From Corallium rubrum (Eukaryota; Cnidaria; Anthozoa; Scleralcyonacea; Coralliidae), in NCBI GenBank assembly GCA_964035015.1, contig OZ036000.1, positions 4,685,709-4,749,708 on the forward strand: a DNA stretch of 64,000 bases, read 5' to 3'. Shown in pieces: positions 27,787 through 63,861 of this stretch (the first letter of the stretch is position 1; each line of letters starts with the position of its first letter). The position numbers and the translations under genes were made by a program. The notes beneath the pieces were generated by a model that did no database searches, had not been told where the DNA came from, and saw only the letters and a program-made list of their open reading frames with translations.

Positions 27787-30700
27787 ATGGACTTTATTCG
27801 TAGCAGTTTTGTGCTACTGTGTGTTGTTTTCTTGACAAGAATAGCCGTTTCTGTTTCAACAAAACGCAAGGTCAGTGAAGCCAGTAATGTGCTATAAAAT
27901 ACTTAATGTAAAATTATCTAGAATGTGACCATGTTAAAATCTTTTGTTATGCATAAACATTGCACTCGTAATCTTTGTTTTTGAAATACAGGTAAGTTCA
28001 GTCAGTTATAAAAGTGGATAAACTAACTTCATGGTTGAGATAGTATGTGTTGCTTAATTGATGTCTTACTGTCACCCCCCAGGTTTGCAGTGTACACATG
28101 GAAAACCAGGGTTTGAAATTAAAAGCCACTAGGAGCAACCAAAATCCTAGTCAGGACACCCATGTTTGCACACACGCTACAGACTGCAAAGTTTATATCA
28201 TGCAAAAGATACCGTATTTTCTTGGCGATAACCTGCATGGCGTATAACCCGCACAGCAACAAAAATGTCACTTTTGGAAAAATAAATCAGCGTATTTCCC
28301 AGCATATTAAGAATTCAACAGATTACCCGCACCACTTTATTACCTGCACTAATTATGTTTCCTAGCAAAATTAAGCCCAAAATTAAATTAAATGGTATAC
28401 TATTACCTTATCATTGCACAATTTTCACAAAAAAATTTCCTGAAATGGTTGGGTGAGGCTATTAATTTATTGTATACTGAAAATTAATGATCCTTATTAA
28501 GTTTATTGTTTATCAATTTTTCTTTCTTAATTTTTAATTGATGATCTAGTTACTCATGAAACCAATCCCCTGTCTAACCACTAATCACTCCAAAAGTTTT
28601 AACGTTATTCATGTTCAAGCCCAAGCTGATGACAACAGCTCAACCATCCATTACTTTTGGACAACTTATCCTGTGCCAACCATTGTCATTGCTTACACAA
28701 CCTTCGAGCATACAATGCTGAACATAAGCTGTGAAAATTTGGCACTTCATTCAGATGGAATAAACTTCTTTCCTCCAGTAAATTATACAATTGGTTTTTC
28801 TATCCCGACGATATATGAATTCGAAGATGATGATGATAAGGTTGACTTAAATGACAACGATGGAATCGTAACACACAAACTTGAATCAGGTATAACTTGG
28901 CAAATGGAAATTATTGATAATTCTAGTGTTACATTTACTGGAAATGAAGCAATTATTTTTAAAGTAAGTATTCAACTTTTTGTGCTCCTCTGTGAAGAAC
29001 TCAGTAGTGTAGTGTAGTGTAGTGTAGTGTAGTGTAGTGTAGTGTAGTGTAGTGTAGTGTAGTGTAGTGTAGTGTAGTGTAGTGTAGTCCGACCCCAATA
29101 ATGTCTCAGATTACCACTCACCATAATGTTACATCTGGTGTTGCTACCCGCCTTTCAACCAGACCTGTTCGTAAAAAACGTTCTTCCAAACAACGATCTT
29201 TGACTTGTACAGATCAATCCTCCTTGCCATCCTCTGTCCAACAACCGTCAAGTCCACTTTTTGATCCTACCTTGGTCCCAAACCAGTCATCTTCATTACC
29301 AGATCTCCGTGATTCGTGTTCAACCCATCGTATACCTCATGTCTCCAATTTGGTCTTCTCTCCTTCCACACAACCACCAGCATCACCTGATCCTGAGTCG
29401 GATCCTGCCCTTTCATCAACTACTCCGCTTATCACTTTCCTCAATAAATCAATTGAATGCTCTCCTCCCACCATCATTCAGCATCAGACTTCCTCCGCCA
29501 ATTCTCAACAAACATTGGATTGTCTCAGTTCTTTGCTTCGTATTAACAAGCCTTTTTCATCACCCCGAAATGAACAAGCCTCAAACTCCTTATCGCGTTT
29601 CATTCGTGAATGCAATAATATTCCTCCTTCTGTTCCTCAACGAGCTCCCAAAACAGTTGGTTTACCTTCCTCACCTATTTCTTCATCAGAAGTCTCTTCC
29701 ATCCAAACTGTTATTAACGATTCCTCCCGATCCTCGCCTCCTGCACCTAGTCCTTCTCCTAGACGTTACCAAAGACCATCAACTGCTAGACTCTTTTCTC
29801 CCTGGTCATCTCCACAACCTCCTCATCGTTCACCTATCGTTGCCCAGTCAGATGTCGATGACCTAATTAATTCGACTCTACATTCTTCTGGTGAGATACG
29901 TACTCCTTCCTCATTATCGCACCCCACTCCGCCGTCTTCCTTTACTTCTGACAACGATGGAAATCCTTCGACAAATACATGTCCAACTTCTGAGTCGCGA
30001 TCTTCTCCTGTTAATGATTCTTCTTCTCCTAACATGAATGATGATGATTTCACACAATCTCAAAATTCACCATCGTCCAGTCCTTCAGAATCACGCTTGA
30101 AGAGAAATGCGTTTCGTGAAAAATGGATAACTGCCTTCTCCGGGGACATTCCGTGGTCGGACTTTTGCACCCTCTGCGATGAATTTGCCGTTGAATCTCG
30201 ATCTCTCGCTCTAGAAATCGCTGCAGAATCTTCATCTTCTTTTCGTCGCCCAAAACCTCTTCCTCGTCGTGATCGTCCATCTGGCCGCCGTCCTGCTTTC
30301 CGTCATCGACCGCTTTTATCCAATCCCGCCGAAGCACAACGCATTCAAACTTTATATCGTCATTCTAAGAAAAGAGCCGCTCGGAAAATCCTCTCTCCTA
30401 ACAGTCCTTTCTACACTGGATCAACAGACAAAGCAGAATCATTCTTTAGAAATACATTTTCCTTTCGTCAATGTGACACTACATCCCTTCAAGACAAATT
30501 AAAAGATCTCGTTACACCTGCTCCGAGCGATGACTTCCTCTTTTCACCTCCTTCTTGTGATGAAATCCGTCGAAAACTCTTCTCTGCTGCCAATACCTCT
30601 CCTGGGCCCGATCGCGTGGAATATCGTCACTTGAAAAGCATTGACCCATCCTGCTCTATCCTTTCTCTCCTTTTTCAACACTGTTTCAAGCAACGTGATG

Positions 30701-33700
30701 TTCCTCCAGCCTGGAAGTCTGCGACTACGGTGCTCATCTATAAGAAAGGTAGCACAGAGGATCCTTCCAACTTTAGACCCATCGCCTTAATGTCGTGTCT
30801 CTACAAGTTAGTTATGGGAGTCATCGCCAAACGACTAACATCATGGGCCATTGATCACGATCTTTTATCCCAAGAACAGAAGAGTGCACGTCCCAGTGAA
30901 GGTTGTTATGAACATACCTTTCTCCTCCAGTCCATCGTAGGTGATGCCCGACGTAATCGGAAAAATGTTTTTGTCGCTTGGCTTGATCTTCGCAATGCTT
31001 TTGGAAGTATCCCTCATTCTGCTATTACCTCTACCCTTTCCCATATTGGAGTACCACAACCACTAATTGAAATGATAACCAATTCTTATTCTGGAGCAAC
31101 CACCAAAATACGTACCCCCACCAGTTTGACCTCTGATATACCAGTTTTATCAGGTGTCAAGCAAGGTTGTCCGTTGAGCCCAATCATTTTCAATTTGACC
31201 ATCGACATCATTTTACGTGCAATTAAACAAAAAGCTTCAGACATTGGTCCTGCTAAACTCCATGGTATACCTGTCTCTGTCTTTGCTTATGCTGATGATC
31301 TTGTCATAATCTCCAGAAATAAAGACCGACTCCAGAAACTATTAGATGTTGCTTCTTCCACTGCGACAACCCTTGGTTTATCCTTCAGACCTGATAAGTG
31401 CGCCTCTATCAGCCTCACCTGTTCCAGATCTAATCATTCTGAATCTTCTTTTGAACTTAATGAATTCATCGTCCAGAACAATTCCATTCCTTCACTTGAT
31501 CGTGAACATCCTTACAAATACCTTGGTGTTCCTATTGGCCTAATCCATGATCCAGATAACATATCTGATTTGGTTCAAAACCTTTCACGTGATTTGGACA
31601 ATATTGAGAAATCCCTTTTAGCTCCTTGGCAGAAGTTAGACATGATTCGTACCTTCCTTCAACCTTCCTTAACATTCGCCCTTCGTGCTGGATACCCGAA
31701 AAAAGAACATCTTCGTGAATATCGTTCAACTCTCGTTTCCACCATCCGTAGAATATGTTCTCTACCATCTCGAGCTTCTGCTTCCTACATCTTCGCTCAC
31801 AAACGCGCTGGTGGTCTTGGCCTCCTTGATCCAATCCTTGAAGCTGATGTTCAAGCAATAATTCATTCGGCTAAGATTCTATCTTCCTCCGACCCGACTG
31901 TAATTCACATTGCTAATGCTGAATTAAACGAAACCGTCCGACATGCCTCCCGATCTAATCCTACTTCTGCTCTGAAATCCAACTACCTGTCCAGCCTTCC
32001 TGATGATCGTTTAAACAACCTGCATTACCGCATTCAATCGTTGTGGACCCGAGTCCGCAAATCCACTCGTAACCTTGGTATTGAAATTAAATTCAATGAC
32101 AATGGTCTTCCTGTCCTTTCGTCTCAAAACTCTGGTTCTGTTCTTGCTAAAGAAGCCAGTCGTTTCCTGCATTTCCATGTTCAAGACCGATTCGCTTCTA
32201 CTCTATTTGCTCTTCCTGATCAAGGGAAAGTTGCTCGGGCGCTTACCACTGACACCTTCGCCAATGGATCTACTTGGCAATACAATGGCCTCAATATCCG
32301 CTTCAGAGACTGGCGTTTCATCCATCGTGCTCGACTCAATTGCCTTCCACTCAATAATGTCAAGAGTCGGTGGTCTAATGCTAGCCCAAAATGTCGCCGT
32401 TGTACTTCAGATGAGACCCTTCCTCATGTCTTGTGTCACTGCCTTCCTAACATGCCTAGTATTCTTCGCAGACACAACACCATAGTAGACCGTATCACCA
32501 ACGCCGTTCAACATGGTACCATTACTACCGACAAACAAGTTCGCGCCGCCAACTCACGTTTACGTCCTGACATTATTGTTGAAGAGGATAACAAAGTACT
32601 TATCATTGATGTTTGTTGCCCCTTTGATAATAATGCTGAAGCCCTTCATGATGCTGAACAACGAAAAATCAATAAATATGATGGGTTGAAGCAATTTTTC
32701 ATTGGTCAAGGCAAGCAATGTGAGGTCTTTGGTTTTGTGGTTGGTGCTCTCGGCTCCTGGCATCCTCCAAATGAAAATGTTTTACGGCACCTTGGAATGT
32801 CCAAAAGATACCGTTCCTTGTTCAGGAAACTTTGTTGCACGGACGCAATTCAAGGCTCAACAAACATTTACCGTGAACATCTTGGCTTAACTGAGGACAA
32901 CTTGGAAGTAGAAGTTGGTCCTGAATAAACTGTTTAGATTGACTCTTTTTTTTTTTTTTTTTTAATTTCGTTATATTAGAAACTTTAATTTTATTTTTGA
33001 ACTTCTTTAAACCTATTAATGTATTGTATAAATTACTTCATGTATATAATTATCTACATTGTATGACCATTAATGGCACTTATTGTTATCTCGAAGGACT
33101 TAATCAAGACCCATCACCTGTAAATTTTAACTTGTAATAAAAATCAATAGTGTAGTGTAGTGTAGTGTAGTGTACTAGTGTAGTGTAGTGTATTGTAGTG
33201 TAGTGTAGTGTAGTGTAGTGTAGTGTAGTGTAGTGTAGTGTAGTGTAGTGTAGTGTAGTGTAGTGTAGTGTAGTGTAGTGTAGTGTAGTGTAGTGTAGTG
33301 TAGTGTAGTGTAGTGTAGTGTAGTGTAGTGTAGTGTAGTGTAGTGTAGTGTAGTGTAGTGTAGTGTAGTGTAGTGTAGTGTAGTGTAGTGTAGTGTAGTG
33401 TAGTGTAGTGTAGTGTAGTGTAGTGTAGTGTAGTGTAGTGTAGTGTAGTGTAGTGTAGTGTAGTGTAGTGTAGTGTAGTGTAGTGTAGTGTAGTGTAGTG
33501 TAGTGTAGTGTAGTGTAGTGTAGTGTATTGTAGTGTAGTGTAGTGTAGTGTAGTGTAGTGTAGTGTAGTGTAGTGTAGTGTAGTGTAGTGTAGTGTAGTG
33601 TAGTGTAGTGTAGTGTAGTGTAGTGTAGTGTAGTGTAGTGTAGTGTAGTGTAGTGTAGTGTAGTGTAGTGTAGTGTAGTGTAGTGTAGTGTAGTGTACAC

Positions 33701-36700
33701 ACATAAAAATGCACAGTCTGATCAGCTCTGATATCAGATCTGTTCAGAGAAATGTAGTGACCCTTGATGCAGCCTGATAGCTACATAATGTACCAGCACT
33801 GATGTATAAACATTTAGTTAGAATTTCTAACAGACTGGGACAGCTCCATAGACAACATACCTGTTCAGTCTGTTATATCAAAGTGATACAACACTGACTG
33901 TGTCAGGCTGATACAGTTTGACAGAATCTGTTCTGAACAGTCTGTTGTATAGCTGTAGGTATGATACAGATATGATATCATAGGTGTATCATAGCTGATA
34001 CTGCAACAGGCTCTATCAGGGGTCGCTACATTTTTCTGAACAGATCTGACATCATTCTGCATCAGGTCTGACACAGAGTGTGCGTTTTTGCGTGTGTAGT
34101 GTAGTGTAGTGTAGTGTAGTGTAGTGCAGTGCAGTGCAGTGCAGTGCAGTGCAGTGCAGTGCAGTGCAGTGCAGTGCAGTGCAGTGCAGTGCAGTGCAGT
34201 GCAGTGCAGTGCAGTGCAGTGCAGTGCAGTGCAGTGCAGTGCAGTGCAGTGCAGTGCAGTGCAGTGCAGTGCAGTGCAGTGCAGTGCAGTGCAGTGCAGT
34301 GCAGTGCAGTGCAGTGCAGTGCAGTGCAGTGCAGTGCAGTGCAGTGCGCAGCGCAGCGCAGCGCAGTGCAGTGCAGTGCAGTGCAGTGCAGTGTAGTGTA
34401 GTGTAGTGTAGTGTAGTGTAGTGTAGTGTAGTGTATTGCTGTGCTGTGTAGTACACAAGTGTAGTGGAGTGGAATAGTAGGGAATGTAAGATTCAGACAA
34501 CGGACTACGACTGCTGTAGAAAGTTTAACAGTGTAGTAAATGGTGGTGTATTTGTACATTCAAGGTTTCAAAATACACAAGCGCACAGACTCGTAGTTTT
34601 GTAGAATTTCTGAAGATGACTTGCTTATTCAGTGTTGGTTGCGAGAATAATGTTAAGCATTTCAAGGCTTCTGTGGTAACTCAGGTTCCGCGTTGTGTTC
34701 ACAACGTAAACATGAAATGCTTTTTCTACGTTGTCAATGGAGTCGCAGCAGCGTGTAGATTACTCGGCTTGGAACTGTCATTTGCACTGACACACTTTGT
34801 GTCTGACATAAAATTCTATTGTTTAAACACGCTGCCGTAGTCCGTTGCCTGAATCTTAAATTCCCTAGTGTGGAGTGTCGTACGGTGGGATAGGATGCAG
34901 TGTTGTCCAATGGAGTGGAGTGATCAGCTGGAGTGAAATAAAGTAGCGGAGTGTGTAGTCATAGTTAGTGGAGGGGGATGGTTTGGAAACTCGGCAAAAG
35001 TCATCGTTCCATGCTTTTGTTCAATTTGTCTAATTTCATGGTCACTAAACATATTGTATTTTCTGTATAATGAAGCAGTCATCCAATACCAACGTTCGGG
35101 TTTAATTAGTGTAGTCCTTCGTCCTCACGTGTTGTAACTCCTTTGTTCGTTGTGTAGTCGTTCGTCGTCACGTGTCCATAGAATTTCCTTTCTTCAACCA
35201 ATTGCTTTCCTCCAACATGAACCATTGTGTTCATCAACATGACCATTGCATAATCTTGAAAGACAATGAAGCTTCCAAACCATCCCCCTCCACTAACTAT
35301 GGTGTAGTGTAGTACAGTGTCGTGGTGCATGATGTTAGTAACATCACGGTGCATTGCATTCAATATTGTTTGTCTGACATTTAGTGCACAGCGTCGGATT
35401 CAGAAGGTCGAGAGTCATTGCTACCACATGCGAAGCACACGGCAGATAGCAGCAGGTTCTCTCTGTCTTTAAACAACATTAATGTAACCACAAATAAGAC
35501 ACGATTTGCCTTTGAGTTGAACTACATCGTCCACGGCAACCATAGACCAACACTTACCACGGAGAAGAGCATCGATGACGAGTACACCCCAGCTGTGTTT
35601 CAAACGGTTTATGGGAAGGTGCATGGGGGAAATGGAAAAGCTTATTCCCAGTGGAAACCGATCGCGTATACTCTACCTCAGCTGGGAAGGAAATATCAGA
35701 CCAAGGCATCTGCGTCTGATATTCAGAAAGTCGTTAACACGTCATGGAATATTGCCGAGGCTATTGTGTCCATGGACAAGTACGAAATTTATGGTGTCAA
35801 CGTGTCGTTTGGCTTGGCCAAGGATGGTTTTTATCAGAAGAACAAGTATTTGACTTGGTAGGATTTGTAAAATTTGTAAAAACTTTGCTAGCCAATAAGA
35901 CCTACGCAAGACTTTAGTACTGGTAGATATGCCTTAATAAAATCGTTATAATTAAAATTAACTGCTTGCTATTCTAGAGGTAACTAGGAAACAGTCCAAA
36001 AATTAATTTTGCATTTTTCCAACTACACCCGGTTTGGTTTCGGTACGGGAAAGTGTTTGCCTGAGGTTTTGGTACATACCGAGCGACGAAGGAGCAAAGG
36101 TTTGTTTCCATAAAACCGAGAGCAAATACTTTTTCGTACAGACCGAGCAAACAAAGTTAATAGGAATGGCTATTGGTTTATTTTATTTTTAAGTGTTGAG
36201 CACTGTTTTTGTCTTCGGAGTTTGCCGTTACCTTTTACGGTCTCAGAAATTTTCGCGCCAAAGCTTACTGCTCCGAGAAAAAAGCGTATGGACCGGGTCG
36301 GTCCCAGTGAACTCCATACTTCCTCCATTCTCCCCTCATATCTGGAACGCTTACTTCGGGTCAAAAAGTGAAGTCAAGCTCTATTAGGTCGCCTTCAGTC
36401 CCCCTATATACGCGGCCAAGACGTGGACTGGAAGCGACGTAATAGGGACTTTAAGATCTACGACGCGGCTAGCTCGACGACGCGGCCTTAAAAAGGTTAA
36501 AAAGCAATGCATTTAAAAGAAGACACGGTAAATTAACTGCTAACCTGAATGTCAGGCCTTTATTTGTTCCCGCCTTCCGCTAAACCCGGCAGGCGGCAGA
36601 GGTGCGGGCGAGCGAGAAGGCGAGAAAAATAAAGGCCTGAAGAAACTCTTAATAAAACTGTGGGTTCTCCGTCCATCTCATGGACGGGAGCTCTGATTGG

Positions 36701-41349: not shown

Positions 41350-41466
41350 ACCCCGTTTACACTAGAGCAAAAGTATCCGGATTCACATTGTTTTTTATTC
41401 TCATGAGGATGAAAAACATCTGAATCCCGGATACTTTAATTAATTTTGCTCTTGTGTAAACGGGGT
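41350..41466. mobile_element. 117-bp MITE immediately upstream of ubiquilin
   Basis: ACCCCGTTTACACTAGAGCA at the left pairs with the inverse TTGTGTAAACGGGGT at the right; AAAGTATCCGG/CCGGATACTTT also pair. It ends 75 bp before the ubiquilin ATG, so it lies in the promoter or 5' UTR. Confidence 0.8.
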
Positions 41467-41541
41467 GATTGGAACCTGGTAACTAGCCCAAGCTTCGCTT
41501 TCAATTTTTCGCTGAGGTCATATTCAATAACTAGTCATAAC

Positions 41542-63861
<22,320 letters not shown>

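Follow-up and report, generated by a model that had tools for sequence, protein, structure and literature searches.

In a 64,000-nucleotide stretch of the Corallium rubrum genome (hereafter the window; C13:4685709-4749708, in a 474 Mb genome of 312 contigs) we analyzed a non-long terminal repeat (non-LTR) retrotransposon, termed family A, which is lodged in an array of the pentanucleotide repeat (GTGTA)n. We consider it probable, at roughly 70%, that family A is a Utopia-like element encoding a restriction-like endonuclease (RLE) that has colonized a microsatellite containing its cut-site word. Utopia denotes RLE non-LTR retrotransposons specific for the U2 small nuclear RNA (snRNA) gene (Kojima and Jurka 2015, PMC4640811). 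The evidence comes from the junctions of family A copies across the genome and from a sister family, C, that is inserted in U2.

The window copy of family A spans 4059 nt (29089..33147, forward strand) and is flanked on its 5′ side by 17 repeat copies with 100% matches (29004..29088, scoring 1.0 to the array) and on its 3′ side by 110 copies with 98% matches (33148..33697), the latter junction reading ...AATCAA^TAGTG (carets mark junctions or cuts). An initial annotation had described a 1275-residue open reading frame (ORF) with reverse transcriptase (RT), CCHC finger and RLE between two (GTGTA)n arrays, and our analysis confirmed this description. The frame (29101..32928, forward) is free of internal stops, its RT domain (30742..31536, forward; residues 548–812) matches Pfam RVT_1 with an E of 1.6e-35, and among proteins of known structure those of R2 match its sequence best (9nl2, E 4.4e-60), ahead of LINE-1. 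A separate second match to R2 structures covers the CCHC finger and the RLE region (residues 1038–1236; 32212..32808, forward). The motifs FAYADD, CX2CX7HX4C and RPD..D..K were placed on the full-length sister copy P0004 and, by reading, in the window ORF, and the order of RT, CCHC finger and PD-(D/E)XK endonuclease is the layout of RLE-encoding non-LTR retrotransposons. At its 3′ terminus the copy carries a 90-nt tail (33058..33147, forward; last letters TTGTAATAAAAATCAA). A tblastn search of the ORF against the window yielded no second copy.

We examined 50 family A 3′ ends, 26 from stretches around earlier-found copies and 24 further ones. All of them lie in (GTGTA)n or close variants and none in unrelated sequence, ruling out a chance association and bearing out the suggestion that the element is site-specific for this repeat. 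In 49 of the 50 the array begins in one phase, with TAGTR directly after ...AAAATCA[A/G]; in the exception, on C34, the tail is 11 nt short and the array starts GTGTAG. Left out of this set were L048, whose tail ends ~20 nt early and is followed by a GTGCA-type array, and the A-like tails in L093 and L094, which are followed by only TAGTGTA and then by a piece of another family, D.

Among the scored candidates, family C is represented by a single coding copy (L025), whose ORF is open over 1534 aa. Its RT is 81% identical to that of family A, as compared to 63% between A and a third family, B, and 62% between C and B. The 3′ tail of C is nearly the same as that of A (...TTTGTAATAAAAATCAAT) and passes into TCTGTTCTTATCAG, which is U2 from nucleotide 39 on (Rfam U2, 125.5 bits). 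On its 5′ side lies the U2 piece AAGATCAAGTGTAG, with U2, U1 and 5S genes upstream, and the U2 copies beside C score as complete. Nucleotide 39 of U2 is the published 3′ junction of Utopia (PMC4640811); C thus ends at this site, whereas A does not. Of the new site-specific lineage proposed by the initial annotation, the array specificity stands, but with a sister element in U2 at the Utopia site the free-standing new lineage becomes a probable target switch. Comparison of the array phase GTAGTG^T with the U2 site GTAGTA^T gave identity at 6 of 7 positions, the other four phases reaching 3, 3, 0 and 0, so that the phase used by A would best recreate the U2 cut site provided that the junction T is part of the target.

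Integration of family A into (GTGTA)n would most likely proceed by target-primed reverse transcription. Its endonuclease would nick the bottom strand at ...GTAGTG^TAGTG, the 3′ tail of the RNA would be copied from the nick, and incomplete synthesis would generate 5′-truncated copies, including the one in the window, still within the array. An ancestor cutting U2 at GTAGTA^TCTG probably also hit, and then specialized on, a microsatellite repeating that word. The common word GTAGTR^T would represent the endonuclease part of the recognition, whereas U2 and the pure array are unlike in the sequence upstream of it. For R2, the RLE has been reported to contact positions -6 to +1 and the N-terminal zinc finger (ZnF) and Myb domains an upstream motif (PMC10499050); the N-terminal fingers of family A, described below, may take part in target choice. 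The direction of the switch, from U2 to the array, we infer from how widely U2-specific Utopia elements have been reported and not from a tree of the present families.

Several observations weigh against this reading. The direction is unproven: the array is used by A and B but U2 by C, although C is nearer to A than is B; two switches, one switch that was later reversed, or an ancestor using both targets would also fit. The RTs of A, B and C were compared among themselves. The junction T may belong to the element, as an extra T in C hints, in which case the phase matches U2 at 0 of 7 positions. Of the 30 candidates scored for C a single one is a coding copy, and the C-like 3′ ends at other places vary in their surroundings, with a U2 fragment in L088, a location beside (TA)n in L089 and an unclear case in L087. 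The 50 ends of A are not all independent, as L022 and L036 as well as L078 and L079 have flank variants in common. Finally, finger-region identity does not track the target (C–B 66%, A–B 64%, A–C 59%). The low A–C value in the fingers as compared to the RT is consistent with a change in the upstream reader; yet the fingers most similar to those of C are found in B, an array family, so that finger identity fails as a predictor of target.

Some of these points are shared by another explanation, in which family A is an ordinary microsatellite-specific RLE element of the HERO, Dong or Togen kind without any U2 history, and the U2 sister copy is an occasional hit at an array-like word. The single coding copy of C and its mixed 3′ ends would suit this view, as would the bracketing of one U2 family by two array families and the fact that microsatellite-specific RLE elements are already published. 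It is nevertheless unlikely, given that the 3′ junction of C coincides with the Utopia nucleotide-39 site and lies next to U2 copies scored as complete, that the C frame has stayed open, and that another element, L090, a relative of D, likewise enters U2 from nucleotide 39.

The U2 genes themselves were located by a genome search in which 46 of 22,294 candidates were scored, 45 of the scored matches lying at C1:17.13-17.6 Mb and one at C1:76.06 Mb. At L046 and L052 (G000:C1:17.13-17.19 Mb), U2, U1 and 5S genes form a linked unit with a repeat period of ~1.06 kb. Different insertions are present in U2 genes just before AAGATCAAGTGTAG at L052–L060 (G000:C1:17.16-17.52 Mb and 76.06 Mb); the one retrieved over its whole length measures ~1.8 kb and has a CCHC-like reading frame, the set contains at least two 3′ variants, and these insertions are a separate U2-targeting family. 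Near the U2 cluster, L103 (G000:C1:17778800-17782750) holds a block of ORFs with a P-loop ATPase-like protein, which is virus- or Maverick-like by reading only.

The 5′ ends bear on whether the array is the target or a product of the element, as it would be if slippage of the 3′ tail during reverse transcription seeded (GTGTA)n in the manner of LINEs with terminal short repeats. Such an origin would be in line with the TAGTR that starts nearly all A 3′ ends, and the U2 word GTGTAGTA could conceivably seed an array. From 37 aligned pieces, 13 were set aside (six internal rearrangements, three beside N and four at a stretch edge). Full-length starts adjoin the array in seven of eight cases (on C23 after one extra CAGGTGT), and the eighth, on C141, adjoins CAGGTGT repeats extending over at least 276 nt; 2 kb upstream of it (L098) an array passes into CAGGTGT repeats, the intervening 2 kb being unread. 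Array was likewise found upstream of 15 of the 16 assessable truncated starts, with 2 odd bases in between on C15 and C34 and an A-rich filler of ~28 nt at C18:575000, whereas the start on C14 adjoins (ATCT)n. As the truncation points are many and array precedes them, the array constitutes the target and not a part of the element. Furthermore, three of six sampled array loci on C1 are free of the element within the 0.8–3.3 kb fetched, one of them inside a tRNA-Val-like gene (by reading), and we regard production of the array by the element as very improbable. A spread of the copies mostly through recombination between arrays or through segmental duplication, instead of targeted insertion, as clusters on C18, C20, C23 and C141 and the pairs with common flank variants (the two named above and L093/L094) might suggest, is very improbable in view of copies on many contigs with differing truncation points and of near-identical copies on different contigs (C13, C1 and C18).

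Exact matches to (GTGTA)4, counted with overlaps, number 24,336 in the 474 Mb, and those to the reversed pattern 6,169. In the tRNA-Val-like gene (L001/L008, G000:C1:3427510-3427849) the array, consisting of GTGTA and variants, sits between GTTTCTG and GTGGTTATCACG, within the D-arm reading TAGTGTAGTGG, a possible birthplace of such arrays. Tandem CAGGTGT heptamers, variable in number, were seen at the 5′ end of some A copies (L032 1–276, L098 and L043).

A genome-wide protein search listed 40 matches, with 36 of 8812 first-look candidates scored, and the resulting counts are lower bounds. Of the 40 listed matches, 32 belong to family A, with 82–100% identity to the ORF (94–100% for the full-length ones); the rest comprise one of family C (70%) and seven of family B (50–53%). 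At the DNA level, a search using the terminal 218 nt of the element as query scored 40 of 88 candidates and listed 40 places. The suspected youth of the window copy is well supported by its 99.78% identity over 4059 nt to the L011 copy, indicating that it is young and that the family was recently active. For the ORFs of these two copies the nonsynonymous (dN) and synonymous (dS) rates were 0.0024 and 0.0011, a ratio of 2.2 that is uninformative because there are so few changes. In most comparisons of L009–L012 with more diverged A copies dN/dS was 0.13–0.28, pointing to purifying selection on the ORF, and among L013–L017 it was 0.28–0.66.

The window copy had been considered intact, which does not hold. 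The full-length family A element measures 5271 nt (L011), and its ORF starts 128 codons upstream of the window ATG and encodes three regular C2H2 fingers (CX2CX12HX4H), for which Pfam returned sub-threshold finger matches only. The window copy begins near position 1210 of the element; missing ~1210 nt at its 5′ end, it lacks the first 128 aa with these three fingers. Removal of the N-terminal ZnF and Myb domains was reported to abolish nicking by R2 (PMC10499050), and by analogy the window copy would therefore not target on its own. Among nine translated A copies, six keep a frame of 1403 or 1418 residues. A 5′ self-cleaving ribozyme as in R2 was not found with Rfam (E up to 5) in 601 nt of L010, comprising the first ~550 nt of the element, where the sole match, to a microRNA family with an E of 2.7, is at chance level. 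Scans of the viral_contigs and genome_contigs collections revealed no relatives of P0002.

Family A is not the only user of the array. The 3′ tail of family B differs (ATAAATCATAAA), yet the 3′ ends of this family lie in the same array and phase in eight of eight cases examined (L038, L039–L044 and L085), and the one 5′ end read (L045) adjoins array. The first ~700 nt of B are 86.7% identical to the 5′ untranslated region (UTR) of A, followed by B's own UTR (L038/L045), which likely reflects an exchange of UTRs. Family D (L102 1570–3578 and L091–L101), found via the C tail, includes D1, an element of 2009 nt without RT, whose 515-residue ORF has no significant Pfam or PDB match. D1 and A have only the last 90 nt in common (92%), and all 12 D 3′ ends examined lie in the array. 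The D relative L090 runs into U2 (Rfam U2, 104.4 bits). With C and L090 in U2, and A, B and D in the array, autonomous and RT-less types each occur at both targets. We tentatively propose, as a possibility somewhat short of even odds, that a whole community, two autonomous families plus a hitchhiker with an ORF but no RT, left U2 for a microsatellite repeating the cut-site word, and that the array would serve as a shared, self-renewing habitat with elements in tandem and exchanged 5′ UTRs.

Among known systems, Dong targets (TAA)n, and HeT-A with TART as well as SINE/LINE pairs are known partner pairs. As in these pairs, the RT-less D shares the end of its tail and its target with an autonomous partner, but it carries an ORF without significant Pfam or PDB match and its target is a microsatellite. 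The array target of A also sets it apart from R4/Dong, with (TAA)n or ribosomal DNA (rDNA) as target, and from R2, which resembles it in the layout of RT, CCHC and RLE but belongs to 28S rDNA and differs from the three-fingered N-terminus of A. Utopia ORFs comprise one to three N-terminal zinc fingers, RT, and a C-terminal finger with RLE (PMC4640811), an architecture matched by the single ORF of full-length A, though not by the truncated window copy, and the U2 insertion of C and the same cut-site word extend the likeness. The examined ends, however, lie in (GTGTA)n and not in U2 (A 50/50, B 8/8, D 12/12), and because A was tested for the U2 site and is not found there, we do not call it Utopia; its lineage is sister to a Utopia-like element inserted in U2, and its mode of action seems to resemble that of other RLE elements with a specific target.

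Departures from U2 have been described within Utopia, crocodilian copies lying outside U2 at words such as TGTAGTATCTG and weakly specific families inserting at U2-like words, and the (TG)n-specific Togen and microsatellite-specific HERO families are published RLE elements (PMC4640811). Like these and Dong, A uses a simple repeat, but instead of the (TG)n of Togen this is a pentanucleotide containing the cut-site word of the snRNA gene used by its sister family. While microsatellite targeting by RLE elements is thus of a known kind, the open-licence papers searched, available in part and with Repbase outside their scope, contained no (GTGTA)n-specific element, no link from U2 to a microsatellite and no ORF-bearing Utopia hitchhiker, and a record elsewhere is possible. 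A low-copy target such as U2 has been considered a poor survival strategy, and the continued existence of several U2-specific families has been described as difficult to account for (PMC4640811). Two sister families that share a cut word, C inserted in U2 and A in an abundant repeat of the same genome, offer a testable route for target change and suggest that the endonuclease word was kept while the location changed, a risky target present in few copies being exchanged for a plentiful one. Array-cutting enzymes also provide a simple substrate for studying site choice of R2-like proteins.

Downstream of the window copy, the same array is interrupted by a palindromic insertion resembling a miniature inverted-repeat transposable element (33698..34093; inverted arms of 48 nt, 88%), which is separate from the retrotransposon. 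The array continues beyond it at 34094..34452, where the repeat listing shows GTGTA passing into GTGCA (mixed). Further along the window, reading frames at 41440-41721 and 48966-49784 appear to resemble ubiquilin exons.

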